Source of the DNA: Neorhizobium sp. SHOUNA12A
GTDB lineage: Bacteria; Pseudomonadota; Alphaproteobacteria; Rhizobiales; Rhizobiaceae
Assembly: GCF_023006505.1 (NCBI RefSeq)
Contig: NZ_JALBGV010000002.1
Coordinates: 1-64,000 of the forward strand
Direction of reading: 5' to 3'
DNA: 64,000 nt
In this document: in pieces, positions 15,254 to 44,036 of the stretch
Numbering within the stretch: position 1 is the first letter of the stretch
How the letters are laid out: every line of letters begins with the position of its first letter
Position numbers and translations under genes: made by a program
The notes under the pieces: model-generated
Seen by the model: the letters and a program-made list of their open reading frames with translations, nothing else
Databases searched by the model: none
Told to the model about the DNA's origin: nothing

Positions 15254-16015
15254 TTAGATATGCGCTGTCTGCGCCGCGTTGATCGATGAGATGAAGCTCT
15301 TGGTGCGTTCCTGCCTCGGATTACCGAAGATAGCTTCCGCCCTGCCGGACTCGACCACTTTCCCGCTCTCTAGGAAAACCACGTGATTAGCGATCCGCGA
15401 GGCAAGGCGCAGGTCGTGCGTCGCCATCACCATCGTCGTTCCTTCGGCAGCAAGCCGGCCGAGCACGTCGATGACCTCGGCGGAAAGTTCAGGATCGAGG
15501 GCCGAGGTCGGTTCGTCACAAAGAAGAACCCGCGGCGAAGGCGCAAGCGCCCGGGCGATCGCCACCCTTTGTTGTTGCCCACCGGAAAGCTCTGACGGCC
15601 ACGCATCGGTCTTATGCGCCATTCCCACCTTGGTGAGCAGTTCGCTGGCGCGGTCATGGGCCTTTTGGCGCGGCCATTTCAGAACCGTCGTCAGTCCCTC
15701 CATGACGTTCTCGATCGCCGTTCGATGCGGAAAGAGCTGGAAGTTCTGGAAGACCATGCCGGTCTGGCGGCGGATCTTCTGGATCGACTTCCAGCCGATC
15801 TTCAGGCCGGGCTCGAAGTCGAGCTTTTCCTCGCCGATGCGGACGGAGCCGGCGGTCGGAATTTCCAGCAGGTTGATGCAGCGGAGCAGCGTGCTCTTGC
15901 CACCGCCCGAAGGGCCGATGAGCGCAGTCACGCTTCCCTCGGGAATGCCGAGGCTGATGTCCTTCAGGATGACCGCGTCGCCGAACCGCTTTTCGATGTT
16001 GGAAAGCTCGATCAT
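15254..16015 (-). CDS. tcyN: Amino acid (cystine-type) ABC transporter ATP-binding protein
   Basis: The 253-residue ABC ATPase has Walker A GPSGGGKST, Q-loop region MVFQNFQLFPH, signature LSGGQQQRVAIARAL, Walker B VLLCDEPTSALDP and the switch His in MATHDL. It belongs to the polar amino acid (PAAT) group. It powers the permease encoded just upstream. Its ATG overlaps the permease stop by four bases (ATGA), which fixes the start and shows translational coupling. The cystine assignment comes from the partner binding protein and permease. Confidence 0.88.
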   Translation of the reverse strand: MIELSNIEKRFGDAVILKDISLGIPEGSVTALIGPSGGGKSTLLRCINLLEIPTAGSVRIGEEKLDFEPGLKIGWKSIQKIRRQTGMVFQNFQLFPHRTAIENVMEGLTTVLKWPRQKAHDRASELLTKVGMAHKTDAWPSELSGGQQQRVAIARALAPSPRVLLCDEPTSALDPELSAEVIDVLGRLAAEGTTMVMATHDLRLASRIANHVVFLESGKVVESGRAEAIFGNPRQERTKSFISSINAAQTAHI

Positions 16016-16692
16016 CGGTTTGACTCCATCATGCCGCCATAACGGGCGAAACGCTTTTCAAGCCTGTTCTGCAGGGATGACAGCACCGAGCTCAAGACCA
16101 GGTAGATCAAGGCCGCCTCGATATAGAGGATCAGTGGCTCATAGGTCGTCGCGACGATTCGCTGGGCGGCCTGAAAGAGTTCCGGCACCGTGATCGCCGC
16201 GGCAAGCGAGGTATCCTTGACCAGCGAGATGAAGGTATTGGAAAGCGGTGGCACGGCGACGCGCGCCGCCTGCGGCAGGATGGTGCGGCTCATCGCCTGG
16301 CGCCATGACATGCCGATCGAATAGGCCGCTTCCCACTGCCCCTTCGGCACCGAGGAAATGACCGCGCGGATAATTTCGGAACTGTAGGCACCGATATTCA
16401 GGGTAAAGCCGATCAGTGCCGCGGGAAAGGCGTCGAGCAGGATGCCGACGCTCGGCAGGCCGTAGAAGATGACGAAGAGCTGCACGAGAAGCGGGGTACC
16501 GCGGATCACCCAGACGTAAAACCGTGCGATCAGCGCAAGCGACGCCGGGCCGAACAGCCGCGTCACCGCCGTGATCAGGCCGAGGATGAGCCCGAGCAGG
16601 AAGGACAGCAATGTCAGCGGAACCGTAAAACGGACGCCCGCCCATAGGAGGGTCGGAAGTGAATCCGACATCAATTGAAGCCAGTGCGGCAC
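16012..16692 (-). CDS. tcyL: Amino acid (cystine-type) ABC transporter permease
   Basis: The 226-residue protein is a HisM/YecS-type permease with about five membrane segments. It resembles E. coli YecS (TcyL) closely in SVPKGQWEAAYSIGMSW, ILPQAARVAVPPLSNTFISL and LVKDTSLAAAITVPELF. The EAA loop (QWEAAYSIGMS) contacts the ATPase. Only one permease gene is present, so a homodimer is expected, as in E. coli TcyL. It imports cystine or a related polar amino acid, which fits the sulfur-related genes at the left end of the window. Confidence 0.88.
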   Translation of the reverse strand: MPHWLQLMSDSLPTLLWAGVRFTVPLTLLSFLLGLILGLITAVTRLFGPASLALIARFYVWVIRGTPLLVQLFVIFYGLPSVGILLDAFPAALIGFTLNIGAYSSEIIRAVISSVPKGQWEAAYSIGMSWRQAMSRTILPQAARVAVPPLSNTFISLVKDTSLAAAITVPELFQAAQRIVATTYEPLILYIEAALIYLVLSSVLSSLQNRLEKRFARYGGMMESNR

Positions 16693-16713
16693 GACGTGAT
16701 CCTCAAAAAATGA

Positions 16714-16735
16714 CGTCCGGCGCGGGCGCCGGACG
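16714..16735 (-). other. Intercistronic hairpin between binding-protein and permease genes
   Basis: CGTCCGGCG (16714-16722) pairs exactly with CGCCGGACG (16727-16735) around a four-base loop. No T tract follows in the direction of transcription. It probably protects the upstream binding-protein message from 3' decay rather than terminating transcription. Confidence 0.7.
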
Positions 16736-16772
16736 CTCTAACTATGTAGGTCAGGAATGGGAACTCGGCAGC

Positions 16773-17546
16773 CTATTTGGAGACGTCCTGCCCGAAATAC
16801 TTGTCGGAGATCTTCTGATAGGTGCCGTCAGCCTTGATGTCCGCCAATGCCTTGTTGATGGCACCGAGCAATTCCGGCTCGCCCTTGCGGATGATGATGC
16901 CGGAATAATCGGCATTGTCCTGCTGCGCGGCGATCTTTACCGGCGCGTCAGGTTTCTGCTTCTTGAAATCGAGGAACGAGAGGCTGTCATTGATGGTCGC
17001 GTCGGCGCGGCGTGTCAGCACGAGCTGGATCGACTGGTCGAAGCCATCCGTGCCCACGAGTTCGGCGCCTGCTTGTTCGGCGATCTTGCCGAAATTGCTG
17101 GTCAGAGACTGAGCGGATTTCTTACCCTTGAGGTCTGCGAAACCCTTGATGTCGCTGTTGTCCTGGCGGACGATCAGCACCGCCTTGGACGCGATGTAGG
17201 GATCGGAGAAATCATATTTCTGCTTGCGGGCTTCGGTTATGCCCACCTGGTTGATGACGGTATCGTAACGCTTGGCATCGAGCCCTGCGATGAGGCCGTC
17301 CCACTTGCCTTCGACGAACTCAGCCTTGACGCCAAGTTTTGCGGCAACGGCTTGGCCGATCTCCACGTCGAAACCGACCAGTTTGCCGCTTGCGTCATGG
17401 AAGGTGAACGGCGCGTAGGTCCCCTCGGTGCCGATCTTGAAGACGCCCGCAGACTTGACGGCGGCGAGATTTTCGCCGGCGAGGGAAGGCGTAAGGGCTG
17501 CCGCATGAATAAGGGCCGCCGCGACAATGGTTTTCAACCGAAACAT
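16773..17546 (-). CDS. tcyJ: Cystine-type ABC transporter substrate-binding protein
   Basis: The 257-residue precursor has a Sec signal peptide (about residues 1-23, ending PSLAGE) and a type II periplasmic binding fold. It closely follows E. coli FliY/TcyJ: EGTYAPFTFHD, KWDGLIAGLDAKRYD, INQVGITEARKQKYDFSDPY, and the ending FGQDVSK. FliY binds L-cystine, so cystine or a similar sulfur amino acid is the likely ligand. It is the first gene of the minus-strand operon. The 364-base region upstream is shared with the divergent IclR gene, so control by that IclR protein is possible but unproven. Confidence 0.88.
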   Translation of the reverse strand: MFRLKTIVAAALIHAAALTPSLAGENLAAVKSAGVFKIGTEGTYAPFTFHDASGKLVGFDVEIGQAVAAKLGVKAEFVEGKWDGLIAGLDAKRYDTVINQVGITEARKQKYDFSDPYIASKAVLIVRQDNSDIKGFADLKGKKSAQSLTSNFGKIAEQAGAELVGTDGFDQSIQLVLTRRADATINDSLSFLDFKKQKPDAPVKIAAQQDNADYSGIIIRKGEPELLGAINKALADIKADGTYQKISDKYFGQDVSK

Positions 17547-17910
17547 TTAGGTCATCCTTTCAGCAGTGCTTGCTGGCGACTAGATGACAGAAAATAGGAC
17601 GTCGGGATTGAAAGAAAACCGCAAAAAAAGCCGGCAAATGCGAATATTTTACTCAGCCGCAGTCATGCCCCAATTCGCGGACGGCTTGTAGCCAAACAAG
17701 CCTGGGTCTCACGTGCCGTGGCCCGCATCGATGCAAGGTAAGGCTGTAGATTGAAAGTTTTCGCTCGCAGGTCCGACGGTGACGCAGCGAAATCCAGCGT
17801 AAAAAAATTCTGAACGCCTTGAGCGCCTTAGCCAGGTGAGGGCCAAATTTGCGCGCAAGCACGCTCCCGCGCGGTTGACATAAATCAATGACGGCGACAT
17901 CATATTCAAC
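17547..17910. other. Divergent intergenic region between tcyJ-like and iclR genes
   Basis: No gene is seen in these 364 bases. At the right end TTGACA (17875-17880) is followed after 17 bases by CATCAT (17898-17903), a plausible promoter for the IclR gene. Its start point would fall almost on the ATG. Nothing else stood out apart from an A-rich stretch near 17610-17650 that may hold the tcyJ promoter. Confidence 0.5.
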
Positions 17911-17937
17911 ATGGATACGACATATTCAAATAGAATA
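17903..17937. promoter_or_regulatory. Tandem palindromes over the IclR start codon
   Basis: TATTC-N5-GGATA (17903-17917) and TATTC-N5-GAATA (17923-17937) are two inverted repeats spaced 20 bp apart, two helical turns. The iclR ATG (17911) lies within the first. This is a good candidate for an autoregulatory IclR operator; the assignment is inferred. Confidence 0.5.
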
Positions 17938-18669
17938 CAAGAGGAAAGCGGTGGCGTCCGCCCGCTCTCGACGGTCCTGAAGACCATGGCGGTGCTCGAC
18001 GTGCTGGCCTCCAGCGCTCGCGGCATGAAACTGCCGGAGATCGCGTCGGCGATGGAGCTCTCTCGCCCCACCGCTTATCAGCGGCTGTTGACGTTGATCG
18101 AAGCTGGCTGGGTCGAGCAGGATCACGAGATGCGCTATCGGCTCACGATGCACGCCTGTCGGCTTGCCGCGGCGGCCATGGAGCAGGCCAATCTTGGAGC
18201 GCGGGTTCAGCCGATCATCGAAATGCTGGTCCACCGGGTGAAGGAGACGGCTTCGCTGGCGGTGCTCGATCGCGGACTACCGTGCATCGTCTCGCGTGTC
18301 GAGTCCCAGAGCGTGCTGCGTGCGGAACAGAAGATCGGCACGACCATGTCGCTCGAGGGTTCCGCATCCGGCCGCATCCTGACCGCTTTCGCAGACGAAG
18401 TGACGCTCGCCCGCCTGGAGGAAAGCGGCGAGCAACTGGCCTCGGAAGAGCTCCTGGGCGAGGCGCGCGCCAACGGCTACGCGCTGTCGAGCGGCTATAC
18501 CCATAGCGGCGTCGTCGCCATCGCCGCGCCGATCTTCGATCTCCACGGCAAATGCACGTCGACGATCTCGCTGGTCATGCCGGAGATGCGCTTCGACCTC
18601 GAAAGCTTCCGCGAGCCGCTTCTCGAAACCGCCCGTACCATCACAAAAATGCAGCAGGGAGAACGTTGA
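17911..18669 (+). CDS. IclR-family transcriptional regulator
   Basis: The 252-residue protein has an N-terminal winged helix (about 18-80: PLSTVLKTMAVLDVLASSA, KLPEIASAMELSRPTAYQRL). A C-terminal effector domain contains GLPCIVSRVESQSVL, SLEGSASGRILTAF and GVVAIAAPIFD. No Shine-Dalgarno sequence precedes the ATG, and the predicted promoter would start transcription at or beside it, so a leaderless message is likely. A later ATG (17986) would cut into the DNA-binding domain. It is the first gene before the unknown pair, the dipeptidase homologue and the ABC genes, and probably controls them. The effector is unknown. Confidence 0.87.
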   Translation: MDTTYSNRIQEESGGVRPLSTVLKTMAVLDVLASSARGMKLPEIASAMELSRPTAYQRLLTLIEAGWVEQDHEMRYRLTMHACRLAAAAMEQANLGARVQPIIEMLVHRVKETASLAVLDRGLPCIVSRVESQSVLRAEQKIGTTMSLEGSASGRILTAFADEVTLARLEESGEQLASEELLGEARANGYALSSGYTHSGVVAIAAPIFDLHGKCTSTISLVMPEMRFDLESFREPLLETARTITKMQQGER

Positions 18670-18674
18670 CGGTC

Positions 18675-20384
18675 ATGACCGCGACTTCCGAACAGGTGGC
18701 AACGCCCCGACCGCGCCCAAGCCAAGAGGTGATGAAGACCTCACGGCTGGCGGCAATCCAGCCAAGCCGGCTCAGCGGCACCCGCGCCTTCATGAACAAA
18801 ATGATCCGCGAGCGCTGGGACATCTCCAATGTCCTTTTCGACGTGGATGAAAACGCGGAAGGAACCGTCGTTTATTCCATCAAGGCGCCTGACCAGGAGT
18901 TCTCGTTCATCGGCTTTTCCCGTCCGCCGAGCCGGACGGCTCGTACCGGCCGTATCATCGGCCAGGCCTGGGACATGATGGGCGCGCTGATCGAAGGGCC
19001 GGCGACCGAAATCGAGATCGAAACGGCGCGGCGGGAAATCCCCAAGCTCTATACGGGCCGGGCGACCGCCGGCACGCTGATCTGGTGCCGGTCGAACCGC
19101 TCGATGCGGGTTTTCGATCAGACGCTCGAAGCGCTTGCCGAAGGTCGCCAGCCGTCCGTCGCCGATCTTTCGAAGGTCTGCTACCTGATGCGCAATACCG
19201 GCCTTGACGGCAACGGCACGTTCGGGACGCGTTCCTTCCCGTCGCTCGGCGCCCGCCATGCACTCGGCGGTGTCCTGCAGGCGCAGTTGCTGACCGCCTA
19301 CCTGATGCGGGAATTTTCCTGCGACCTCGTCGAGCATCTGGCGGCCAAGAAATCGGCAACCGCCGTGCGCCTCGACCCCCAGCTTCGCCGCTATATCGGC
19401 GTCGGCAATGGTTCGGCGCTTGGCCTTATCTTCTTCGTCCACAAACATCCGCGCCTGATCGATGGACTTCTGTCCGCCCGCGAAGGCGCGATTGCGATGG
19501 CCCGCGCGCTGAAGCTCGACGCGTCGGATCCCCGCATCGCCAGATTGCTCGAACTTCTCCGCCAGGCAATCGTGTTCCGCAAACAGGACCAGATGGTCTA
19601 CGAGACATTTGCCTCCAGCGCCGACGTGGCAGCCGATATCGACAAGGTGGTGGCGGCGCTCGAAGAATTCCGGCGAAGCGGCACGGTGTTTGGTCGTACG
19701 ACCGATTTGCCGTTTGATGTGCTTACTGCCGAGTTCGAGCCCGACCTCCTGCCGGAAGCTTTCGAGACGTTCCTTTCGTTGCTGATCGAATTGGTGCCGG
19801 AAGAAGCCGACAGGCTGTTGGCGGCCATTGATGCTCCCGACGAATTCAGCGTCGCGCCAGCCGAGACGGTCGAACAGCTGATGGCGCTCGTCCATGACGA
19901 ATATCGGTGGGCGCTCGATACCGACATGGCCGGCCCCGAGGCCTATAAATATGTCTGGTACAAGTCGGAGACGGCGGAGGAGCCGCGCCGCGGCGCCCGC
20001 GAGGAAGTCCCCGACGCACTTGACCTCGGCCTCGATGTCTGCGGCGGCATCCAATCCCTTTTTGCCGATCTCGGCAGGGCCGAAGGTTCGCTCAGCATCG
20101 CCCGCTTCCTGATGAAACATCCTGAACACCGCTACATGGTGGCGCGCATTCAGAGCCTGCGCGGGCGGGACTATCACACGCCTCGCGCCAACATCAACGC
20201 CGAGGCTTTTGTGCCGATCGATCTCGTGCGGCTGATGAACGTAGGGGTCCACGGCATCGACAAGACCCGTGACTTCCTGAACCGCAACCTGCGCGGCGTG
20301 CTCTATCACGGTGCACCGACCGCCGACGATCTGCGCGCCGGCTACACCGGCACCTGGTATTACCCGGCGGAGCCTGTTCTATGA
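18675..20384 (+). CDS. Conserved-looking protein of unknown family
   Basis: The 569-residue protein is probably soluble: there is no signal peptide and no clear membrane helix. I recognise no domain. It is rich in charged residues and has conserved-looking segments such as MRNTGLDGNGTFGTRSF, RRYIGVGNGSALGLIFF and DVCGGIQSLFADLG. Start choice: ATG at 18675, 12 bases after AGGGAGA; a TTG at 18666 overlaps the iclR stop but is too close to that site. Its stop overlaps the next ATG by four bases, so it is translationally coupled to a second unknown gene and to the M19 homologue. A role with those proteins on one substrate is inferred from this coupling only. Confidence 0.8.
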   Translation: MTATSEQVATPRPRPSQEVMKTSRLAAIQPSRLSGTRAFMNKMIRERWDISNVLFDVDENAEGTVVYSIKAPDQEFSFIGFSRPPSRTARTGRIIGQAWDMMGALIEGPATEIEIETARREIPKLYTGRATAGTLIWCRSNRSMRVFDQTLEALAEGRQPSVADLSKVCYLMRNTGLDGNGTFGTRSFPSLGARHALGGVLQAQLLTAYLMREFSCDLVEHLAAKKSATAVRLDPQLRRYIGVGNGSALGLIFFVHKHPRLIDGLLSAREGAIAMARALKLDASDPRIARLLELLRQAIVFRKQDQMVYETFASSADVAADIDKVVAALEEFRRSGTVFGRTTDLPFDVLTAEFEPDLLPEAFETFLSLLIELVPEEADRLLAAIDAPDEFSVAPAETVEQLMALVHDEYRWALDTDMAGPEAYKYVWYKSETAEEPRRGAREEVPDALDLGLDVCGGIQSLFADLGRAEGSLSIARFLMKHPEHRYMVARIQSLRGRDYHTPRANINAEAFVPIDLVRLMNVGVHGIDKTRDFLNRNLRGVLYHGAPTADDLRAGYTGTWYYPAEPVL

Positions 20385-21103
20385 CATCCTTGCATTCATC
20401 TCCCTCCATGCGCGTCATGCCCCGCGAAATGCGGCTGATGTCCGAGCGGATCTTCTCGCTGAGCAGCCTGCCCAAGGGCTTTTTCCTGACGGTCGGCGAC
20501 GTCCCGATGTATTCGCAAAAGCTCGGACTTGGCGGTTTCAAGCTGTTCGAGCAACGGTTCGAGAGCTTTAAGTCGGCGGCTCCCGCCCGTATCGCGATTG
20601 CCTCCGAAGCCGACAACCGCATGACGCTCGATGCTTGCGGCGAACACGCGTGGTTCGTGCTGCCGACGGCGATCGATCTTCTCGGTGAGTTGACGGCCCG
20701 GTTCGGGTCGGCGGAACTGACCGTCACAGGGGCCACGGATGCCGAGGAACTTGCGCTTGCCACGCGTTTCGGTGGTCGGTCGGGGCTTTCGATCTCCGTG
20801 ACCGGCAGTGTGCTGAAGGCTGTTCCGGCAGCGGTCGCCGGCGACGTTCAAAAAGACGATCCTCTTCTCTGGTCGCTTCTGGAAAACGGCGCCGAGATCG
20901 AGAGCGATCTATGGTGGCGCATCTATCACCTGGCAAAGCAGGCACTTGCGACCGACAGCATCGTCTCGCGCCGCCATGCCGGCCCGATGATCGTCAACGA
21001 GGACGGCACGGTCATCGGCCGCAAGGACAATGACGACGAGACGGACGTCTCCTTCCTGTCGTCCAGCATCTCCGAACGTATGAAAGAGGGCGCGAGATCA
21101 TGA
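20381..21103 (+). CDS. Small protein of unknown family, coupled to M19 homologue
   Basis: The 240-residue soluble protein has no signal peptide and no domain I recognise. Notable segments are MPREMRLMSERIFSLSSLPKGF at the N terminus (residues 13-34), then a centre with many alternating beta and helix predictions. The C terminus is strongly acidic and polar (RKDNDDETDVSFLSS). Its ATG overlaps the preceding stop, and its stop overlaps the dipeptidase ATG (both ATGA). This gives a three-gene translationally coupled block. That spacing implies fixed stoichiometry, perhaps a complex of the two unknown proteins with the M19 protein. Function is unknown. Confidence 0.8.
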   Translation: MTSLHSSPSMRVMPREMRLMSERIFSLSSLPKGFFLTVGDVPMYSQKLGLGGFKLFEQRFESFKSAAPARIAIASEADNRMTLDACGEHAWFVLPTAIDLLGELTARFGSAELTVTGATDAEELALATRFGGRSGLSISVTGSVLKAVPAAVAGDVQKDDPLLWSLLENGAEIESDLWWRIYHLAKQALATDSIVSRRHAGPMIVNEDGTVIGRKDNDDETDVSFLSSSISERMKEGARS

Positions 21104-22071
21104 TCATCGACGGTTTGCAATGCGGGCATTTCGATCGCGCCGCCTTTCAATCCTTGAGGGCAGGGAATGTCGGCGGGGTCGTCAACACCTGCGGATTCTG
21201 GGAGGGCACCGTCGAGTCGATGGATTCCATCGGCCGCTGGCGCGATCTGGTGCGCGAAAACTCCGATCTCGCCGAGATCGCCCTTACCGCAGACGACATC
21301 AGCCGCATTTCAGACGCAGGCAAGCTCGCTGTCATCATGGGTTTCCAGAACGCCAATCTCTTCGAAGGACGGATCCGTTTCGTGGAGATGTTTGCCGAAC
21401 TCGGCGTGCGCGTCGTGCAACTCACCTACAACAACCAGAACGAACTCGGTGGCTCCTGCTACGAGGCCGAGGATTCGGGCCTTGCCCGCTTCGGCAAGGA
21501 AGTGGTGCGCGAGATGAATGCCGCCGGCATTCTGGTCGATTGCAGCCATGTCGGCGACCGCACGACGCTCGATGCGATCAAGGTTTCCGAAAAGCCGATC
21601 GCCGTCACTCACGCCAACGCCCAGTCGCTTTTCATGCACAAGCGCAACAAGTCGGACGACGTCATTCGGGCGCTGAAGGAGACCGGCGGCGTGATCGGCT
21701 GCGCCGCCTATCGCAACATCACCGGCGACGAGTTCTGCGCCTCGATCAAAGCCTGGTGCACGATGGTTGCCCGCACGGTGGATATTGCCGGCATCGACTC
21801 CGTCGCGATCGGCACCGACAAGAGCCACAATTTCACCGCTCCCGATTACGCCTGGATGCGCAAGGGCCGTTGGACCCGTGGCGAGGACTATGGCGCCAGC
21901 GCCGCCGGCAAGCCGCTCAAGGCCGCGCCGCCGGAATGGTTCCAGAAGGTCGAGGACATCAGGGTGATCCCGGACGGTCTCAGCGCCGTGGGCTTCTCGG
22001 AAGAGGAAGTCGCGAAGATCACCCACAAGAACTGGCTGCGGCTCTACGAAGCCACCTTCAGAAAATCATAA
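21100..22071 (+). CDS. M19 (membrane dipeptidase) family protein with altered metal site
   Basis: The 323-residue protein is clearly an M19/renal-dipeptidase homologue by fold: ILVDCSHVGDRTTLDAI, IAVTHANAQS, HKRNKSDD and AIGTDKSHN keep the second-half His, His, Arg and Asp positions. The N-terminal ligand motif, normally DGHxD, reads DGLQC (residues 4-8), so both the His and Asp are replaced. The bridging Glu of the usual GxEG motif is Gln83 in MGFQNANLFEG. An H-x-D does occur at 10-12, but shifted. The binuclear zinc centre is therefore unlikely to form in the usual way. It may hold one metal or have another activity. No signal peptide is present, so it acts in the cytoplasm. Confidence 0.85.
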   Translation: MIIDGLQCGHFDRAAFQSLRAGNVGGVVNTCGFWEGTVESMDSIGRWRDLVRENSDLAEIALTADDISRISDAGKLAVIMGFQNANLFEGRIRFVEMFAELGVRVVQLTYNNQNELGGSCYEAEDSGLARFGKEVVREMNAAGILVDCSHVGDRTTLDAIKVSEKPIAVTHANAQSLFMHKRNKSDDVIRALKETGGVIGCAAYRNITGDEFCASIKAWCTMVARTVDIAGIDSVAIGTDKSHNFTAPDYAWMRKGRWTRGEDYGASAAGKPLKAAPPEWFQKVEDIRVIPDGLSAVGFSEEEVAKITHKNWLRLYEATFRKS

Positions 22072-22086
22072 AAGAGGAGAACTGCA

Positions 22087-23127
22087 ATGACTGGAATGAA
22101 GACATTTCTCATGCCTGACCGCCGCCGTTTCCTGAAGACGGCCGGCGCTGCGGTGACCGCTTCGCTCGCCGCTCCCTATCTCGTTCGCGCGCAGGAGAAG
22201 GTCCTCTACGTGAACACTTGGGGCGGTCCCTGGGAGGCTGCCGCAAAGACGCATCTCATCGATCCGTTCACCGCCGAAACGGGCATCCAGGTGAAGACGG
22301 TTTCCCCCGTTTCCTTCGCCAAGCTCGCCCAGCAGGTGAAGACCGGCACCTACGAATTCGACGTCACCACCCTCGGCGGCGGCGAACTGGTTCGTGCGAA
22401 CCAGGCCGGCATCATCGAAAAGCTCACCGAGCCCTACAAAGGCGGCCTCTTCGAAAACGGCGTCGCTTCACATGCGTTCGCCACCGTGATGGCCTGGCGC
22501 AAGGATAAATATAAGGACACTCCGAAGACCTGGGCCGATTTCTGGAACGTCGAGAAATTCCCCGGCGGGCGGTCGCTGCAGCGTTATGCGTCGCGCGTCA
22601 TCCCGATCGCGCTTCTCGCCGATGGCGTCGCGGTCAAGGATCTCTATCCTCTCGATGTGGACCGGGCCTTCAAGTCGCTCGACAAGATCAAGCCGCATAT
22701 CCGCGTCTGGTGGACTGCCGGCGCCCAGTCGACGCAGATCCTGCGTGACGGGGAGATTGACATGATCGGCATCTGGCACGGCCGTTATTTCGAGGCCGAG
22801 AAGGCCGGCGCTCCGGTTGCCATGACCTGGAACCAGGGCGAGATCGAACGCGCCTACTGGGTTGTCGCCAAAAAGAGCCCGAACCTTGAGAACGCCAAGA
22901 AATTCGTCGAATTCGCGACCAGTGCAAAGCCGCTTGCCGGCTTTTCCAAGGCTGCGGACTACGGTGCGCTGAACCCGGCCTCCAACCAGTTCGTCGACGC
23001 GGCGGATGCCAAACGCATGCCGACCTCGCCAGACAACTACAAGCTAACCTTCGAGCAGGACATGTCGAATTTCGGCATCGACCCGGCGGAACTCGCCGAA
23101 CGTTTCGAGGAGTGGGTCGCGAGCTGA
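22087..23127 (+). CDS. Tat-exported polyamine-type ABC substrate-binding protein
   Basis: The 346-residue precursor has a twin-arginine signal: DRRRFLKTAGAAVTASLAAP near residues 11-30, cleaved near VRAQE. The mature part is a PotD/PotF-type binding protein (VNTWGGPWEAAAK, YEFDVTTLGGGEL, IGIWHGRYFEAEKAG). This group binds spermidine, putrescine, opines and other cationic or peptide-like compounds. A strong AGAGGAGA ribosome site lies upstream, 15 bases after the M19 stop. The ligand is presumably what the upstream enzymes process. Export in folded form by Tat is typical of this subgroup in rhizobia. Confidence 0.9.
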   Translation: MTGMKTFLMPDRRRFLKTAGAAVTASLAAPYLVRAQEKVLYVNTWGGPWEAAAKTHLIDPFTAETGIQVKTVSPVSFAKLAQQVKTGTYEFDVTTLGGGELVRANQAGIIEKLTEPYKGGLFENGVASHAFATVMAWRKDKYKDTPKTWADFWNVEKFPGGRSLQRYASRVIPIALLADGVAVKDLYPLDVDRAFKSLDKIKPHIRVWWTAGAQSTQILRDGEIDMIGIWHGRYFEAEKAGAPVAMTWNQGEIERAYWVVAKKSPNLENAKKFVEFATSAKPLAGFSKAADYGALNPASNQFVDAADAKRMPTSPDNYKLTFEQDMSNFGIDPAELAERFEEWVAS

Positions 23128-23160
23128 TCCGCTCTCCTGGATCAACCCGACCCGCTGGCC

Positions 23161-23189
23161 GGCATCGCGCGGAACGACCGCGCGATGCC
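23161..23189 (+). other. Intercistronic hairpin between binding-protein and permease genes
   Basis: GGCATCGCGCGG (23161-23172) pairs perfectly with CCGCGCGATGCC (23178-23189) around a five-base loop. No T tract follows. It sits 33 bases after the binding-protein stop and 35 before the permease ATG, so it probably stabilises the upstream message. Confidence 0.75.
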
Positions 23190-23224
23190 GCAGCGACCCT
23201 GCCTGCCATAAAAAGGGAACGGCA

Positions 23225-24073
23225 ATGGGCATCAGCCTTTCAAAACTGACGGAAAAGACGAATATATGGCCCTGGCTGCTGCTGGCGCCGCTCGGCATCT
23301 ACATGCTCATCTTTTTCGTCGTGCCGCTCGCCGAAGTGGCGATCATGAGCTTTACGGAACCGAAGGTCTCGCTGGCGAACTACCAGAAGGTCCTGACCGG
23401 AGCGCTTTACCAGCGCGTCTTTCTGAACACGTTTGTGACGGCCGCTTTCGTGACGCTCTGCTGCCTTCTGGTCGGTTATCCGCTGGCCTATCTGATGGCG
23501 CATTCCAAGCCACGCACGGCAATGCTGATCCTGCTGCTCGTCACCATGAGCTTCTGGACGAGCTTCCTCGTCCGCACCTATTCCTGGATGGTTCTGCTCG
23601 GCAATAATGGCCCGCTGATTGCTTTGCTGCAGATGATCGGCGTCGACAAGCCGCCGCAGCTTCTCTTCACCCGTTTTTCCTCGACGCTCGCCATGGTGCA
23701 CATCCTGGCACCCTACATGATCATGAACATCTATTCGGTGATGAAGAAGATCGACCCGGCGCTGATCCGCTCGGCGGAAAGCCTCGGCGCCAAAGGCTGG
23801 TCGCTGTTTAGGCATGTCTACCTGCCGCTGACGGCACCGGGCATCGCCAACGGTTCCGTCCTGGTCTTCGTCATCTGCCTCGGTTTCTACGTGACGCCGG
23901 TTCTGCTCGGCAGTCCGCGCGAGCAGATGGTTGCCGGCCTGATCGGTCACCAGATCGAGGAGTTCCTCGCCTTCGGACTGGGCTCCGCCATGGCGATGAT
24001 ATTGCTCGTGGTGACACTCATCATCCTCACCATCTATCATCGCCGCTTTGGCCTCGACAAACTCTGGGGGTGA
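23225..24073 (+). CDS. Polyamine-type ABC transporter permease (PotB-like)
   Basis: The 282-residue protein has about six membrane segments (for example WLLLAPLGIYMLIFFVVPLA at 16-35 and LLLVTMSFWTSFLVRTYSWM near 100). The EAA-type loop is SAESLGAKGWSLFRHVYLPL, near residue 179. It belongs to the spermidine/putrescine permease group and forms a heterodimer with the next gene product. A clear AAGGGAAC ribosome site precedes the ATG. It is six bases from the second permease gene. Confidence 0.9.
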   Translation: MGISLSKLTEKTNIWPWLLLAPLGIYMLIFFVVPLAEVAIMSFTEPKVSLANYQKVLTGALYQRVFLNTFVTAAFVTLCCLLVGYPLAYLMAHSKPRTAMLILLLVTMSFWTSFLVRTYSWMVLLGNNGPLIALLQMIGVDKPPQLLFTRFSSTLAMVHILAPYMIMNIYSVMKKIDPALIRSAESLGAKGWSLFRHVYLPLTAPGIANGSVLVFVICLGFYVTPVLLGSPREQMVAGLIGHQIEEFLAFGLGSAMAMILLVVTLIILTIYHRRFGLDKLWG

Positions 24074-24079
24074 CCGAAC

Positions 24080-24883
24080 ATGAACACGTTCATGCGCTGG
24101 GCCGGTTTTATCGTCGTGCTCTTCATTGCGGCACCGCTCGTCATCGTCGTGCCGATGTCGTTTTCGAATGCGAACTCCCTGCAATTCCCGCCGCCGGGTT
24201 ACTGGCTCGGGTATTATCGCGCTTATTTTACCAGCATGGATTGGCTGATACCGACCTGGAACAGCATCCTGATCGCGACCGCAACGACCATCCTCACCAT
24301 GGCCCTGGTGGTGCCCGCGACTTTCGCCCTGGTGCGCCACAAGTTTCGCGGCAAGGGTTTTGCCGACCTGATGATGCTGATGCCGATGGCTGTGCCGCAT
24401 ATCGTCATGGCGGTCGGCTATTATTCCTATTTCGGCGATCTCGGGCTGGTGCACAGCCATCTCGGCGTCATCCTGGCACATACCTGCCTGTCGGTTCCGA
24501 TCGCCTTCCTTGTCCTTTCGGCCAACCTCAAGGGTTTCGACCGGAACCTTGAACGGGCCGCGCAGAGCCTCGGCGCCAGTCCGGCAAAGACCTTCCTGCA
24601 CGTCACGCTGCCGATCCTGCGACCGGGGCTTGTCATCAGCTCGCTCTTCGCCTTCATCCAGTCCTTCGATGAGACCGTCGTGGCGATCTTCATTTCGGGT
24701 CGCGATGCCGAGACCCTGCCGCGCAAGATGTTCGACAGCATCCGCCAGGAGGCCGATCCGGTGATTGCCGTCATCTCGACGCTGCTCTTCGTCGTCGTGC
24801 TGGTCGGCATCGCGGCTCCTTATTTCGCCAGCGCGCTGCGCAGCCGCGCTCCCAAGCCGAGCCGGCCGGCCGGCGCACACTGA
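24080..24883 (+). CDS. Polyamine-type ABC transporter permease (PotC-like)
   Basis: The 267-residue protein has about six membrane segments, starting MRWAGFIVVLFIAAPLVIVV. It carries the PotC-type segment SFSNANSLQFPPPGYWLGYY and the EAA loop ERAAQSLGASPAKTFLHVTL. It pairs with the upstream PotB-like subunit in the inner membrane. The last segment (SSLFAFIQSFDETVVAIFIS) is typical of the family. It is directly followed by the ATPase gene. Confidence 0.9.
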   Translation: MNTFMRWAGFIVVLFIAAPLVIVVPMSFSNANSLQFPPPGYWLGYYRAYFTSMDWLIPTWNSILIATATTILTMALVVPATFALVRHKFRGKGFADLMMLMPMAVPHIVMAVGYYSYFGDLGLVHSHLGVILAHTCLSVPIAFLVLSANLKGFDRNLERAAQSLGASPAKTFLHVTLPILRPGLVISSLFAFIQSFDETVVAIFISGRDAETLPRKMFDSIRQEADPVIAVISTLLFVVVLVGIAAPYFASALRSRAPKPSRPAGAH

Positions 24884-24914
24884 TCCTCCCAAGGACTCCC
24901 TCCAAGGATTTCCA

Positions 24915-25979
24915 ATGACGAACTACCTGCAACTCTCCAACATCACCAAGACCTACGGACATTTCACGGCGCTCGACGACGTGAGCCTGTCGGTCGAAAA
25001 AGGGGAGTTCGTGACCTTCCTGGGGCCGAGCGGCTCGGGCAAGACGACGACCCTGATGATCATTGCCGGTTTCGAAAAGGCGAGTGGCGGCAAGGTGGAA
25101 GTCGGCGGCCAGTCGATTTCCGAGCTTGCGCCGCATGAGCGCAATATCGGCATCGTGTTCCAGAACTATGCCTTGTTTCCGCACAAGACAGCGGTCGAAA
25201 ATGTCTATTTTCCATTGCAGATGCGTGGGGTCAGCCGCTCGCAGGGCTTGAGACAGGCAGAGGACATGCTGTCGCTCGTCGGCCTCAAGGGTTTTGGCCA
25301 TCGCCATCCGAAGGAATTGTCCGGCGGGCAGCAGCAGCGGGTTGCACTTGCCCGCGCGCTGGTTTTCGAGCCTTCGCTGCTTCTGCTCGACGAGCCGCTC
25401 GGCGCGCTCGACAAGAACCTGCGTGAGCAGATGCAGATCGAGATCAAGCGTATCCAGCGCAGCCTTGGCGTGACGACCATCTTCGTGACCCACGACCAGT
25501 CGGAAGCCATGTCGATGTCCGATCGCATCGTGGTGTTCGAGAAGGGACGTATCGAGCAGGTCGCAGCACCCCTGGATATCTACCATCGCCCGCAGACCTC
25601 CTTCGTCGCCGCCTTCATCGGCGAAAGCAACCTGATCCCGGCAATCATTACCAGCGGGGCCGTCAGAACGGCCGAGAACCCGACGCTTGGAGCCTTCCAA
25701 TACGCTGGCGAAGATGCTCTTGCGGACGGCCAGAAGGTGACGCTTCTGATCCGCCCGGAGCACATCAAGCTGTCGCGCAACCCGATCGAGGGCCGCAAGA
25801 ACGCCCGCATGATCGTCGAGACGATCGTCAACTACGGCGACAACGCCCTCGTGATTGGACGGGCAGGGGATATTCCCATGCGCGTCAGGGTGCTCGGCGC
25901 CGATGTGGTGATCATCAGGGAAGGCGAGGAATGCTGCATCAGCTGGGCGCCGGACGCGGTCTTCGTGATCACCAAATAG
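24915..25979 (+). CDS. Polyamine-type ABC transporter ATP-binding protein (PotA-like)
   Basis: The protein has 354 residues from the ATG at 24915; the frame is open further upstream but only inside the permease gene. It has Walker A GPSGSGKTTT, signature LSGGQQQRVALARAL, Walker B LLLLDEPLGALD, switch HDQSEA, and a C-terminal TOBE domain from about residue 270 (LLIRPEHIKLSRNP). It drives the adjacent permeases. It is the last gene of the IclR-headed operon and is convergent with the DapA-family gene 41 bases away. Confidence 0.92.
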   Translation: MTNYLQLSNITKTYGHFTALDDVSLSVEKGEFVTFLGPSGSGKTTTLMIIAGFEKASGGKVEVGGQSISELAPHERNIGIVFQNYALFPHKTAVENVYFPLQMRGVSRSQGLRQAEDMLSLVGLKGFGHRHPKELSGGQQQRVALARALVFEPSLLLLDEPLGALDKNLREQMQIEIKRIQRSLGVTTIFVTHDQSEAMSMSDRIVVFEKGRIEQVAAPLDIYHRPQTSFVAAFIGESNLIPAIITSGAVRTAENPTLGAFQYAGEDALADGQKVTLLIRPEHIKLSRNPIEGRKNARMIVETIVNYGDNALVIGRAGDIPMRVRVLGADVVIIREGEECCISWAPDAVFVITK

Positions 25980-26020: not shown

Positions 26021-26902
26021 CTACAGCAGCTCGTATTTTTTCAGGATTTCTCTTATTTCCTCGTCCTGAGCCTCGTCTGGAAGCAGGGCAGGCTGCCTGC
26101 TCGCGCCGACTGATTTGTCCTGGAGGTAAAGCGAGCGCTTAACCATGGCGGGCGCAAACCCCAGCGCATAAAGGTCGGTGCGGAAGGCGGTATAGATCGC
26201 CTGCTGACGCTCCGCTTCCGCAATGTCGCCTGAGTTGAAGGCCGTAACGATGCCGGCGAGCACGTGCGGCAGGGCGTTTCCGAGCCCTGATATGCAGCCG
26301 GCCGCACCGTTCTGCAGCGACCACAGGACAAGATGGTCGGGGCCGGAATAGACCTCGAAGCCGGGGTTGTCTTTCGAGACCTGGAGGTAGGCCGCCAGGG
26401 TTTCCTGGGCGCCGCCGGAATCCTTGATGCCGGCGATATTGCCGTGCCCGGCAAGCTTTGCAGCCGTTGCCGGCTCGATATGGTTCTGGGTCCGGGCCGG
26501 TATGTCATAGAGATAGACCGGCGTCTTGACCGCATCCGCGACCGTCGAGAAGTGGCGGACCAGCCCGTCCTGAGTGCAGGCGATGAAGAAGGGAGTGATG
26601 ACGGCGATGCCGTCGACGCCGATCCGGTCAAACTCTTTGGCCAGTTGCACCGTCTCGAATGTGGCTGGCATCCCGGCATTGACGATGACTTTCGCGCGCC
26701 CCGCCACCTCGTCGACCACGTGTTCTGTCAGCTGGATCTTCTCTTCGTGGGTGAGAGCAGTGAAATCACCATTGGTGCCGGCGCACATGATGTTGTTGCC
26801 CGCTGCCACCTGCCGGCGCACCTGGGCGCGGGTCGCCTCGAAATTGATCGTCTCGTCCTCGTTGAAGCAGGTCACGAGTGCGACAAAGGCATTTCTGGTC
26901 AT
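26021..26902 (-). CDS. DapA-family (dihydrodipicolinate synthase/N-acetylneuraminate lyase) aldolase
   Basis: The 293-residue class I aldolase has a TIM barrel. The Schiff-base lysine is in NIAGIKDSGG near residue 165 and the catalytic tyrosine in VYLYDIPART near 136. The conserved GTNGDFTAL replaces the GTTGE motif of true DapA. Relatives include N-acetylneuraminate lyase and several 2-keto-3-deoxy-sugar-acid aldolases or dehydratases. It starts five bases after the transporter ATPase gene, so it is in the peptide-type ABC operon. Lysine synthesis is unlikely; cleavage of a keto-acid from the imported substrate fits better. Confidence 0.88.
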   Translation of the reverse strand: MTRNAFVALVTCFNEDETINFEATRAQVRRQVAAGNNIMCAGTNGDFTALTHEEKIQLTEHVVDEVAGRAKVIVNAGMPATFETVQLAKEFDRIGVDGIAVITPFFIACTQDGLVRHFSTVADAVKTPVYLYDIPARTQNHIEPATAAKLAGHGNIAGIKDSGGAQETLAAYLQVSKDNPGFEVYSGPDHLVLWSLQNGAAGCISGLGNALPHVLAGIVTAFNSGDIAEAERQQAIYTAFRTDLYALGFAPAMVKRSLYLQDKSVGASRQPALLPDEAQDEEIREILKKYELL

Positions 26903-26906
26903 TCAA

Positions 26907-28556
26907 TCAACTCCGCTTATCCGCCGCTCGGCGGTTTGTCATGCACGTTTGAGACGGGCTGCCCGGTGTTCGGCCTGAACCATCCGGGTCCGGATCGAGG
27001 CTCGCCGCCAGGAGCGCTCTTGTATAGGCTTCACGGGGCGTCTCGAAGATCTCCCGGACTGTTCCCATTTCCACCACCTCGCCCTTCTGCATGACCATGA
27101 CGTAGTCCGCGAAGTCGCGAACGACGGGCAGGTCGTGGGCGATGAAGATGAAGGAGATGCCCATGTCCCGTCGCAGCTTGTCGAGAAGCGCGATGACCTG
27201 GGCCTGCACCGATACGTCGAGCGCCGACACCGCCTCGTCGCAGACGATCAGCTGTGGTTCGAGCGCAAGTGCGCGGGCAATTGCGATCCTCTGCCGCTGG
27301 CCGCCCGAGAACTGGTGCGGATAACGGCTCATGTGTTCGGCCGAGAGGCCCACCTGCACCAGCAGTTCCGCGACCCGTTCCCGCCATTGGCGTTTCGGCA
27401 GGATATCGGGATGGATGGCCCAGGCTTCGGATACGAGCTGGAACACCGTCATGCGGGGATTGAGCGACTGGGTGGGGTCCTGAAACACCATCTGAAGGTC
27501 GCGCCGGAGCTTGTAGAGTTCCGATGGCGAAAGCTGAAAAAGATCACGCCCCTTCCACTGCGCCGTGCCGGCGTCCGGCTCGTCCAGTCTCAAAAGAACG
27601 CGGGCGAGCGTCGATTTGCCCGAGCCGCTTTCGCCGACGATCGCCATGGTCTCGCCCGCCCTGAGGTCGAACGAGACACCCTTCAACGCATCGAAGGAGC
27701 CGTAGCGTTTGCGCACGTCCCGGACGCTGAGCAGCGGCTGGCCCGAAAGCTGTGCGACGTGCATCTCGCCCTTCCCGGGGGCGGCGCCGATCAGTTTTTT
27801 GGTATAGGGATGCGTCGGGTTCTTGTAGACGTCGCGGACGGTGCCGGTCTCGACCAGCTCGCCCTTTTCCATGACGACCACCCGATCGGCGATTTCGGCC
27901 ACAACACCGAGGTCATGGGTGATGATCAGCACGCCCATGCCGGTTTCCCGCTGCAACTCCTTCAACAGCGCCAGCACCTCGGCCTGGACCGTTACGTCGA
28001 GTGCGGTGGTCGGCTCATCGGCGATCAGCAGATCGGGACGCAGCGCAAGCGCCATCGCAATCATCACGCGCTGGCGCTGGCCGCCAGAAAATTCGTGCGG
28101 ATATTTGCCCATGGCGCCTTCCGGGTCCGGAATTCCAACGCGCGTCAACAGGCGCAGGGCTTCGCTTTTGGCCTGTCCGGTCGGCATGCCGTGGGTCGTC
28201 ATCGCTTCGCGAATCTGCCATCCGACGGTATAGACCGGGTTCAGATGGCTGAGCGGGTCCTGAAAGATCATCGCGATCCGCCGTCCGTTTGCCTCGCGGC
28301 GCGCCTGGGGCGGCATGGTCAGCAGGTCTTTGCCGTCGAGCAGGATCTGCCCGGCACTGATCCGCCCGGGCGGCATGTCGATGAGGTTCATGATCGCCGC
28401 CGACGAAACCGACTTGCCCGATCCGCTTTCGCCGAGGATCGCCAGCGTCTCGCCGCGGTCGAGATGGTAGGAGATGTTGCGCACGGCATGCACGACGCCG
28501 GCGGCCGTGTGGAACTCGACCGAGAGGTTGCGGACTTCCAGCAGGTGCTCAGCCAT
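26907..28556 (-). CDS. Fused double ATPase of peptide/nickel-type ABC transporter (DppD-DppF fusion)
   Basis: The 549-residue protein has two complete ABC domains. The first (about 1-260) has GESGSGKS, FSGGQRQRVMIAMAL and LLIADEPTTALDV. The second (about 275-525) has GESGSGKST, FSGGQRQRIAIARAL and LIVCDEAVSALDV. Each is followed by the oligopeptide-type C-terminal segment (TKKLIGAAP; TRALLAASLDPD). It replaces the separate DppD and DppF subunits, as in GsiA. In the second Walker B motif the usual Pro is Ala (DEAVSAL). The start overlaps the permease end by eight bases. Confidence 0.92.
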   Translation of the reverse strand: MAEHLLEVRNLSVEFHTAAGVVHAVRNISYHLDRGETLAILGESGSGKSVSSAAIMNLIDMPPGRISAGQILLDGKDLLTMPPQARREANGRRIAMIFQDPLSHLNPVYTVGWQIREAMTTHGMPTGQAKSEALRLLTRVGIPDPEGAMGKYPHEFSGGQRQRVMIAMALALRPDLLIADEPTTALDVTVQAEVLALLKELQRETGMGVLIITHDLGVVAEIADRVVVMEKGELVETGTVRDVYKNPTHPYTKKLIGAAPGKGEMHVAQLSGQPLLSVRDVRKRYGSFDALKGVSFDLRAGETMAIVGESGSGKSTLARVLLRLDEPDAGTAQWKGRDLFQLSPSELYKLRRDLQMVFQDPTQSLNPRMTVFQLVSEAWAIHPDILPKRQWRERVAELLVQVGLSAEHMSRYPHQFSGGQRQRIAIARALALEPQLIVCDEAVSALDVSVQAQVIALLDKLRRDMGISFIFIAHDLPVVRDFADYVMVMQKGEVVEMGTVREIFETPREAYTRALLAASLDPDPDGSGRTPGSPSQTCMTNRRAADKRS

Positions 28557-29472
28557 TCTTTCGGCCTTTCATTTCCAGGCGCCAACGCTGGACGGGATCG
28601 AGCGCGATGCGCAGCCAGTTCGACAAAAGGTTGAGCGACAAGGTGGTCATGATGATGGCCAACCCGGGCCAGAACGAGAGCCACCAGGCGTTGGTTAGAT
28701 ACTGGCGCCCTTGCGAAATCATCAGCCCCCAGGTGATCGCGGGCGGCTGGATGCCGATGCCGAGAAAGGACAGCGCGCTTTCGGCAAGCATGACATAGGC
28801 GAAGTCCAGCGTCGCCAGCGTGGTGAGCGTCGGGAAAACGACCGGCAGGATGTGACGGAACAGGATGCGGTTCTGCGAAGCGCCCATCACCCGCGCCGCC
28901 TGCACGAACATCCGCTCGCGGATCTCCAGCACCTCGGCGCGGGTGGTGCGCAGATAAACTGGGATGCGGGTGATCGACAGGACGGCGACCAGGTTCAGGA
29001 TCGAGGAGCCCAGGAGATAAAGGACGATCACCGCGATCAGCAGCGAGGGAAAGGACATGATCACGTCTGCCAGGCGCATGATCACCTGTCCGACGCGGGG
29101 CGAGGAAAAGCCGGCGACGAGGCCGAGCAGTGTGCCGATGACCGATGACAGGATCACTGCGCCGGCGGCGACCATGAGGGTGTTTTGCGTCGCGACGATG
29201 ATGCGGGCGAGCAATGGCCGGCCGAGAGCATCGGCCCCCATCCACCACACCCACTCACGGCTCCAGTCGAAGGGCGCGAGGTTGCGGCCGCGGAGATTCT
29301 GCTTGGTGGCAAGTTCGCCGAGCCAGGACGGCCCGATCAGAGCAAGCACGATGACGACGAGCAGGAAGATCACCGCGCAAAGCGCGAATTTGTCGGCCCA
29401 GAGCATTCGTGCCATGCGGATCGGGAAGGAGGGCTCGTGCGCGATCGTCGTATCGGAGGTGGAAACACTCAT
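28549..29472 (-). CDS. Peptide/nickel-type ABC transporter permease (DppC-like)
   Basis: The 307-residue permease has a cytoplasmic N terminus, TM1 (FALCAVIFLLVVIVLALIGP) and about five further segments. The EAA-type loop includes VQAARVMGASQNRILFRHILP. DppC features include ADALGRPLLARIIVATQNTL. The ATG at 29472 is chosen because GAGGAG lies seven bases upstream; the frame also runs to a TTG at 29487 that overlaps the dppB stop. It forms the channel with the DppB-like subunit. Confidence 0.9.
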   Translation of the reverse strand: MSVSTSDTTIAHEPSFPIRMARMLWADKFALCAVIFLLVVIVLALIGPSWLGELATKQNLRGRNLAPFDWSREWVWWMGADALGRPLLARIIVATQNTLMVAAGAVILSSVIGTLLGLVAGFSSPRVGQVIMRLADVIMSFPSLLIAVIVLYLLGSSILNLVAVLSITRIPVYLRTTRAEVLEIRERMFVQAARVMGASQNRILFRHILPVVFPTLTTLATLDFAYVMLAESALSFLGIGIQPPAITWGLMISQGRQYLTNAWWLSFWPGLAIIMTTLSLNLLSNWLRIALDPVQRWRLEMKGRKNG

Positions 29473-29483
29473 CGTTGCGCTCC

Positions 29484-30398: not shown

Positions 30399-30416
30399 GT
30401 CGCCCTCGACTATTAT

Positions 30417-30440
30417 GGCGGCGGATGGGTACCCGCCGCC
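30417..30440 (-). other. Intercistronic hairpin between binding-protein and permease genes
   Basis: GGCGGCGG (30417-30424) pairs exactly with CCGCCGCC (30433-30440) around an eight-base loop. There is no T tract in the minus-strand direction. It lies between the dppA-like stop and the dppB-like start. Confidence 0.7.
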
Positions 30441-30481
30441 TTTGGGTCGTGATTGGAAATCCGGGAGCCGGTTTCCGCTGA

Positions 30482-37736: not shown

Positions 37737-44036
<6,300 letters not shown>

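Follow-up and report, generated by a model that had tools for sequence, protein, structure and literature searches.

A conserved three-gene core with an altered M19 homologue in Neorhizobium, putatively for the breakdown of a betaine-like nitrogen compound

The closest described system to the genes reported here is probably the marine pathway for homarine (N-methylpicolinate), which is reportedly set out in Ferrer-Gonzalez et al. 2026, Nat Microbiol 11:1531 (cited in PMC13390433). N-methylglutamate dehydrogenase (Mgd), encoded in Ruegeria pomeroyi by mgdABCD beside the AraC-type tmaR, participates in homarine catabolism, as stated with reference to Ferrer-Gonzalez 2026 in PMC13390433. Uptake of homarine by R. 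pomeroyi is shown in PMC12817926, where the compound's mean lifetime is at most 2 h. Homarine also comes up in PMC9038784 and PMC9723723. Here we analyse 64,000 nucleotides of DNA from Neorhizobium sp. SHOUNA12A (contig NZ_JALBGV010000002.1, positions 1 to 64,000; hereafter the window), in which the genes of a 569-residue protein (A), a 240-residue protein (B) and a homologue of the M19 membrane dipeptidases follow one another. The three form a conserved, co-occurring core with nearly obligate linkage, which is widespread, coherent in function and poorly annotated. In the window they lie within an eight-gene unit whose pathway is probably a divergent branch of this recently published kind.

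The eight-gene unit and its conserved core

The original prediction, made from the DNA alone, had the three genes joined by two ATGA overlaps, and direct reading of the DNA confirms the motif at both the A/B and the B/M19 joint. It also placed them under an IclR gene and ahead of an importer. Both flanks are present; the IclR gene ends only 5 nt ahead of the A start, which makes it the opening gene of the unit and not one that stands apart from it. On the other side, 15 nt separate the M19 gene from the start of an ATP-binding cassette (ABC) importer, with GAGGAG just upstream of that start. These two short gaps give a working unit of eight genes (17911-25979), ordered IclR-A-B-M19-SBP-permease-permease-ATPase, where SBP is the substrate-binding protein:

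17911..18669, plus strand: IclR-family regulator, 252 residues (PF01614 at 4.5e-24; PF09339 at 8.7e-14)
18675..20384, plus strand: A, 569 residues, ATG start, TGA stop; conserved core member, family and fold unassigned by searches
20381..21103, plus strand: B, 240 residues, ATG start, TGA stop; by profile a divergent DUF3726 protein, with a predicted Ldh_2-like fold without the NAD domain
21100..22071, plus strand: M19 (membrane dipeptidase) homologue, 323 residues, ATG start, TAA stop; altered metal site
22087..23127, plus strand: ABC SBP with a twin-arginine translocation (Tat)-type signal (PF13416 at 2.1e-38; TIGR01409 above cut-off)
23225..24073, plus strand: ABC permease, PotB/PotH-like (NF007044, 163.3 bits, cut-off 348)
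24080..24883, plus strand: ABC permease, PotC/PotI-like (NF007047, 122.5 bits, cut-off 326)
24915..25979, plus strand: ABC ATPase, PhnT2/PotA-like (TIGR03265, 363.4 bits, cut-off 457.7; TIGR01187, 336.8 bits, cut-off 355.6)

Pfam assigns the IclR, M19, SBP, permease and ATPase genes to their families clearly. The reading frames of all eight genes are open. In the four genes checked, G+C content at third codon positions is well above that at second positions (A, 0.77 against 0.46; B, 0.76 against 0.48; M19, 0.81 against 0.44; SBP, 0.79 against 0.45). A longer frame for A, from 18552, would overlap the IclR gene, and the 569-residue start agrees with the close relative L034.

The importer had been described as Tat-dependent and polyamine-type. 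Its SBP carries RRRFLKT and exceeds the TIGR01409 cut-off for a twin-arginine signal (18.6 against 16.7 bits), but falls below that of Pfam TAT_signal (PF10518; 18.1 against 22.7). "Polyamine-type" is true as a superfamily label, but no NCBIfam cut-off for PotABCD is reached: PotD scores 45 bits against 582, and the PotB, PotC and potA values are those of NF007044, NF007047 and TIGR01187 above.

Across genomes, the core genes occur together. The M19 family was followed with a profile built from A-linked members, whose hits fall into two score groups (354-583 and 216-331 bits). In an order-level sample of 297 genomes, A is present in 40, the matching M19 type in 40 and both in 39; the exceptions are G078, an incomplete genome with only a fragment of A and no M19 of the upper group, and G207, which has upper-group M19 without A. 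In a phylum-level sample of 388 genomes, which shares three A-bearing genomes with the first, A and the upper M19 group occur in one identical set of 27 genomes. Upper-group hits lie within 12 kb of A in 37 of 44 cases in the order sample, against 1 of 19 for the lower group, and in 29 of 29 in the phylum sample. DUF3726 hits, which represent the family of B, lie within 2.5 kb of A in 38 of 40 cases in the order sample. The original prediction had named a lack of conserved linkage in other genomes as its refutation; these counts show the neighbourhood to be conserved. Of that prediction, a coupled and conserved cassette of catabolic appearance, its altered M19 member and the importer for a cationic or zwitterionic compound are supported.

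The A/B joint was followed through 121 A loci, a redundant set in which some loci are cut by contig ends and L034/L071, L037/L081, L044/L103 and L161/L162 are the same or nearly so. B, recognised by a profile from 29 B proteins of those loci, starts within -30 to +60 nt of the A stop in 108 of them, and 69 of these have a possible start that gives a 4-nt overlap. A/B coupling is therefore more than chance. The 13 loci without B at the A stop include three Bacillales ordered A-M19-B. In a scan of named-species genomes, the best 80 of at least 587 relatives (at least 590 stretches listed) come from alpha- and gammaproteobacteria, Bacillales and some actinobacterial and other metagenome-assembled genomes (MAGs). 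Loci L062, L065 and L066 hold divergent A paralogues on a long branch, with no M19 marker nearby, and these may have another role. A phage origin of the core was rejected: none of the 37 pattern matches in scanned viral contigs was a relative, and a viral structure library gave nothing below E 0.25.

Three unusual core proteins

A and B had both been presented as unknowns. This stands for A, but B is no orphan. While window B itself matches neither the PF12525 (DUF3726; DUF, domain of unknown function) model nor, usefully, any other Pfam or NCBIfam model, hits to PF12525 at E ≤ 0.1 come from 25 of the 29 B homologues aligned, the best of them at 8.5e-26. A profile of 27 members outside the window's genus pair scores window B at E 0.016, against 0.89 for the best of 2000 shuffles. 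Four further B members from the window's branch score E 2.2e-5 to 0.067 with the same profile, above all 2000 window-B shuffles. By these profile scores, window B is a divergent DUF3726 protein. The C-terminal consensus of B homologues is VPxSExSRxxGAGAG, and the window B tail is longer and altered. A literature search on DUF3726 found no paper.

The predicted structure of B (pLDDT 80.4) resembles Ldh_2 enzymes, the type-2 malate/lactate dehydrogenases. It matches 1z2i with a Foldseek E of 1.8e-5 and a VIA Z of 15.6 (179 residues, root-mean-square deviation 4.1), and 1wtj, a delta1-piperideine-2-carboxylate reductase, with a VIA Z of 13.8. Residues 6-189 of the model superpose, and the matched range (9-189 for 1z2i) takes in nearly the full length of the matched chains. 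As B has 240 residues, against 312-361 in those chains, this range and length appear to leave no room for the NAD-binding domain. Profile alignment (hhalign) of B with eight Ldh_2 proteins of the same gene neighbourhoods gives P 0.00036, at an HH probability of only 36.7%, with the N-termini in register. In this alignment a five-residue gap stands opposite the Ldh_2 motif DGIRS, and a leucine opposite the next histidine, which we take to be the catalytic residue. Given the missing NAD domain and these changes, B is probably a non-redox subunit.

A has no significant Pfam or NCBIfam match, and a Pfam scan of 25 A homologues gave none better than E 0.04. No match was found among PDB sequences either (best E 1.1 with the single sequence, 0.071 with a profile). 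The predicted structure is confident (pLDDT 88.6, pTM 0.90) and matches no PDB fold: Foldseek gives nothing better than E 0.2, and the highest VIA Z is 5.5, over 91 residues. A fold search with a 569-residue model can miss a single-domain match, and an absent match is no proof of a new fold; on this model, the fold of A is possibly new. Ornithine cyclodeaminase and SbnB were rejected as fold relatives because their matches are weak and at noise level, and profile comparison (P 0.27) does not make A and B mutual duplicates. A, lacking a known relative or fold match, and B, with its cofactor-less dehydrogenase fold, are the strangest parts of the unit.

The third core protein shares with M19 membrane dipeptidases the fold family (PF01244 at 1.2e-74) and two histidines, the arginine and the aspartate of the site. 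Aligned with 3id7, it retains His150, His171, Arg182 and Asp240 (the aspartate in a sub-threshold piece), whereas the bridging glutamate is replaced by Gln83 and a site histidine by Tyr110. All six residues are invariant in 18 A-linked members. The N-terminal His-x-Asp that we take to be typical of the family is not at its expected place. Residues 10-12 of the window protein read HFD, which is HFN in Sinorhizobium meliloti and absent from the marine members shown. The canonical two-metal site (HxD, bridging Glu, two His, Asp) is not present, the loss of HxD being judged against the motif typical of the family. These ligand changes suggest that the M19 homologue likely binds at most one metal.

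Its closest PDB relative, 2i5g ("amidohydrolase"; 4.8e-52), carries the same Gln and Tyr changes. A second M19 subfamily, scoring 216-331 bits against the A-linked profile, is mostly unlinked to A and has a member in the window's own genome (G000:C144:51855-52814); 2i5g may belong to it. The 2i5g gene presumably lies beside dimethylglycine demethylase genes in P. aeruginosa. A literature search on PA5396 with dipeptidase found nothing, and among the titles listed for operons that pair BCCT with a membrane dipeptidase none was fitting.

Neighbour genes, the marine form and the putative substrate

Within 9.5 kb of A, the 121 loci hold markers for M19 in 102, aldehyde dehydrogenase (ALDH) in 62, LysR in 42, Ldh_2 in 31, BCCT in 29, RidA in 25, Pot-type permease in 23, Pot-type SBP in 21 and OpuAC in 10. 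Several are concentrated near A when loci with the marker under 4.75 kb are set against those at 4.75-9.5 kb (M19, 97 against 5; Ldh_2, 29 against 2; IclR, 16 against 0; ALDH, 51 against 15; BCCT, 26 against 4; Pot-type SBP, 20 against 3). A BCCT, Pot-type or OpuAC importer lies within 9.5 kb in 59 of the 121 loci, and in 47 of the 73 with both flanks complete.

The arrangement LysR / RidA-ALDH-M19-BCCT-A-B is shared by Vibrio, Photobacterium, Aliivibrio, Enterovibrio and Psychrobacter. In Ruegeria TM1040, Phaeobacter inhibens and Aliiroseovarius the genes run LysR / ALDH-M19-(BCCT)-A-DUF3726-Ldh. Ahead of them, these three roseobacters carry a helix-turn-helix regulator, of AraC type in both cases tested, and genes for sarcosine-oxidase-type alpha and gamma subunits, with beta and delta also for TM1040. 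SoxA- and SoxB-type genes lie near A in L129 (SAR116) and a SoxA-type gene in L133; over the 121 loci, SoxA and SoxB markers occur in only 5 and 6. In the three roseobacter records, the core with its LysR gene thus stands beside a sarcosine-oxidase/Mgd-type operon, and the five enzymes and regulator would fit an operon homABCDER, which reportedly yields N-methylglutamate and occurs in Rhodobacterales, SAR11 and SAR116. The marine form of the core is probably the homarine pathway published in 2026.

The window unit instead pairs an IclR regulator with an ABC importer and lacks ALDH, Ldh_2 and Mgd. Since the core is common but regulator, importer and companions differ, we do not file the window unit as a homarine operon. 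The earlier statement that no known pathway has this gene set is probably outdated for the marine version. If the marine form is the homarine pathway, that pathway gains structural hypotheses (an Ldh_2-derived B, a one-metal M19 and possibly a new-fold A), and its mostly terrestrial branch differs in regulation, in uptake and probably in substrate.

About half of the loci lie near an importer class known for betaine-like or N-methyl nitrogen compounds, and often near aldehyde-, imine- or amine-handling enzymes. From the importer types (BCCT, OpuAC and Pot-type) and these companions, we judge that the unit probably serves to import and degrade a small nitrogen compound of cationic or zwitterionic character, most likely a putative N-methylated or ring-nitrogen betaine. 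The ABC importer would bring the compound in, and IclR would sense the compound or a product. A and B, as one complex, could act on the substrate itself by ring opening or activation, and M19, as a one-metal amidohydrolase, could cleave an amide-type C-N bond in an intermediate. RidA, an aminotransferase, aldehyde dehydrogenases or an N-methyl-amino-acid dehydrogenase, encoded nearby in relatives, would complete the breakdown. A route from homarine to N-methylglutamate would need ring opening and the loss of one ring carbon. Such a route could provide M19 with an N-formyl or similar amide, ALDH with an aldehyde, and Ldh_2 or RidA with an imine, the ring step being left to A and B. In alpha- and gammaproteobacteria, Bacillales and actinobacterial MAGs alike, an unnamed family (A) and a DUF are tied to an apparently single catabolic role. 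Since the model symbiont S. meliloti 1021 possesses the core, as do Phaeobacter, Ruegeria and Vibrio at the level of the genus, its function is directly testable there.

Several points weigh against a betaine-like substrate and the comparison that leads to it. Pot-type SBPs bind varied ligands, and a peptide-type importer adjoins the window unit. No BCCT, Pot or OpuAC importer lies within 9.5 kb in 62 of the 121 loci (some of them cut), or in 26 of the 73 with full flanks. Neither LysR (20 loci near, 22 far) nor RidA (8 near and 17 far) clusters close to A; they sit at the distal end of longer operons or, in the case of LysR, may be background. The co-occurrence counts come from related genomes, with the A-linked M19 profile and a bit-score split chosen after the gap had been seen. 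Window A shares 28-36% identity with the 23 A proteins aligned from outside its genus pair. Among the genes tested, none in or beside the window unit is of ALDH, Ldh_2 or Mgd type, with no such marker within 9.5 kb; the window's genome has a single Ldh_2 hit at E ≤ 1e-10, which shows 40% identity and lies on a different contig. The homarine link draws on a citation, the neighbour set and the reported operon name homABCDER with N-methylglutamate as the reported product, and the roseobacter sarcosine-oxidase-type genes could be of the Mgd type or true sarcosine oxidases.

Other genes were noted beside the core. A creatinase-type, DddP-like protein is encoded just before M19 at L083:7660-8910; this one, the only copy scored, reaches 430 bits with NF043017, below the cut-off of 600. 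Proteins of the same cluster stand in this position in several loci, including L082, L125 and L139. SABATH-type carboxyl methyltransferase genes (PF03492), to our knowledge unusual in bacteria, lie near A on the minus strand at L055:6627-7748 and L054:13086-14204.

The window's branch and rival substrates

In a tree of the 121 A sequences, the window falls in a branch of 14 (support 1.00) in which M19, a Pot-type SBP with permease, and an IclR gene within 9.5 kb of A are present in all 14. Its members include Neorhizobium, Rhizobium, Brucella tritici, Vreelandella, Aminobacter, Alloyangia, Ensifer and S. meliloti pSymB. The branch is a separate, mostly plant and soil variant of the core; the listed hosts of close plasmid relatives are mostly soil or nodule isolates, with one from sea water.

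Companion genes in this branch vary. The S. meliloti and Ensifer units add an aminotransferase, succinate-semialdehyde dehydrogenase (SSADH) and RidA, and the Aminobacter unit RidA and a thiamine pyrophosphate (TPP) enzyme. The Alloyangia unit adds Rid, an FAD oxidase, a TPP enzyme, gabT, SSADH and a cupin. Two plasmid records outside the tree carry window-type units: in Neorhizobium petrolearium RidA, a TPP enzyme, gabT and a cupin adjoin, and in Bosea these four are not annotated in the stretch shown, whose gene table is incomplete. The window's genome holds a TPP-gabT-cupin set (85-90% identical) on contig C192 (L176:6484-10095) and RidA (83-84% identical) on contig C217 (L177:6896-7264), both away from the unit.

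The companions bear on a tentative alternative, that a different plant betaine of the N-heterocyclic or N-methyl kind, such as trigonelline or a pyrrolidine or pipecolate betaine, is broken down by the branch to a four-carbon semialdehyde or omega-amino acid. Titles listed in a literature search on trigonelline added nothing to this. The aminotransferase and SSADH annotated beside the unit in S. meliloti, Ensifer and Alloyangia, and gabT with the TPP enzyme in N. petrolearium, would fit such products. Many branch plasmid records are Sinorhizobium, in a collection biased to sequenced symbionts. These neighbours vary, however; the incomplete Bosea table lists none, and in the window's genome the gabT-TPP-cupin set and RidA are on other contigs. 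A bolder proposal is likewise doubtful: A would be a new enzyme fold for which B, a dehydrogenase fold that has lost its cofactor domain, is indispensable, and the pair would open or activate a stable nitrogen ring or betaine although no cofactor-binding domain is recognisable. M19 would then be a one-metal amidase for the product, and the IclR/ABC branch in legume symbionts an undescribed plant-betaine pathway.

That the branch degrades homarine itself, with other downstream enzymes, is unlikely. It has the same three-protein core, and Vreelandella neptunia and Alloyangia pacifica carry window-type units. A deep split and a long branch in the A tree argue otherwise, as do a regulator, an importer and downstream genes that differ from the marine ones (the unit lacks ALDH, Ldh_2 and Mgd) and the mostly soil and nodule origin of the plasmid hosts, one from sea water excepted.

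Peptide-like amides or opines, with M19 as a real dipeptidase, are improbable substrates. The M19 Pfam match and the peptide-type importer and dihydrodipicolinate synthase (DHDPS)-family gene behind the window unit, with DHDPS and ABC genes likewise in N. galegae, speak for them. However, the bridging glutamate and site histidine are replaced in 18 of 18 aligned M19 members, and among the 121 loci no more than 5 hold a peptide-type SBP within 9.5 kb of A, compared with 59 that hold a BCCT, Pot or OpuAC importer. An opine or dipeptide system was set aside as the lead reading because of this rarity and the altered M19 site. Of the "peptide-like or cationic" substrate first put forward, the cationic or zwitterionic half is supported, while the peptide-like half goes back to the M19 name and the adjoining importer.

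We take SMb20383 to be the importer gene of the A-B-M19 unit in S. meliloti. Polyamines or polyamine conjugates would agree with a Pot-like importer and with the annotation of SMb20383 as spermidine/putrescine transport in PMC4960864, but the unmet Pot cut-offs and the BCCT or OpuAC importers of other branches make them an equally improbable substrate.

The remaining features of the window lie around the unit:

17875..17903, plus strand: possible promoter upstream of IclR, TTGACA-17-CATCAT, from a consensus scan alone (3 found in the region against 1.8 expected)
26021-32017, minus strand: DHDPS-family gene and peptide-type ABC importer directly behind the unit; the importer (26907-32017) comprises SBP_bac_5, two permeases and a double ATPase
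15254-17546, minus strand: polar amino acid (cystine/lysine-type) ABC importer with SBP, permease and ATPase, divergent from the unit
37737-44036, plus strand: very long open reading frame, 2099 residues

DHDPS and ABC genes also lie behind the unit in N. galegae, and a DHDPS gene lies upstream of it in N. petrolearium. For S. meliloti, Ensifer, Alloyangia, Aminobacter and Bosea, the stretches shown, with their incomplete gene tables, list no DHDPS. The DHDPS and peptide-type ABC genes were therefore left out of the unit. In N. galegae, the ATPase and SBP of the polar amino acid importer also lie upstream of the unit.

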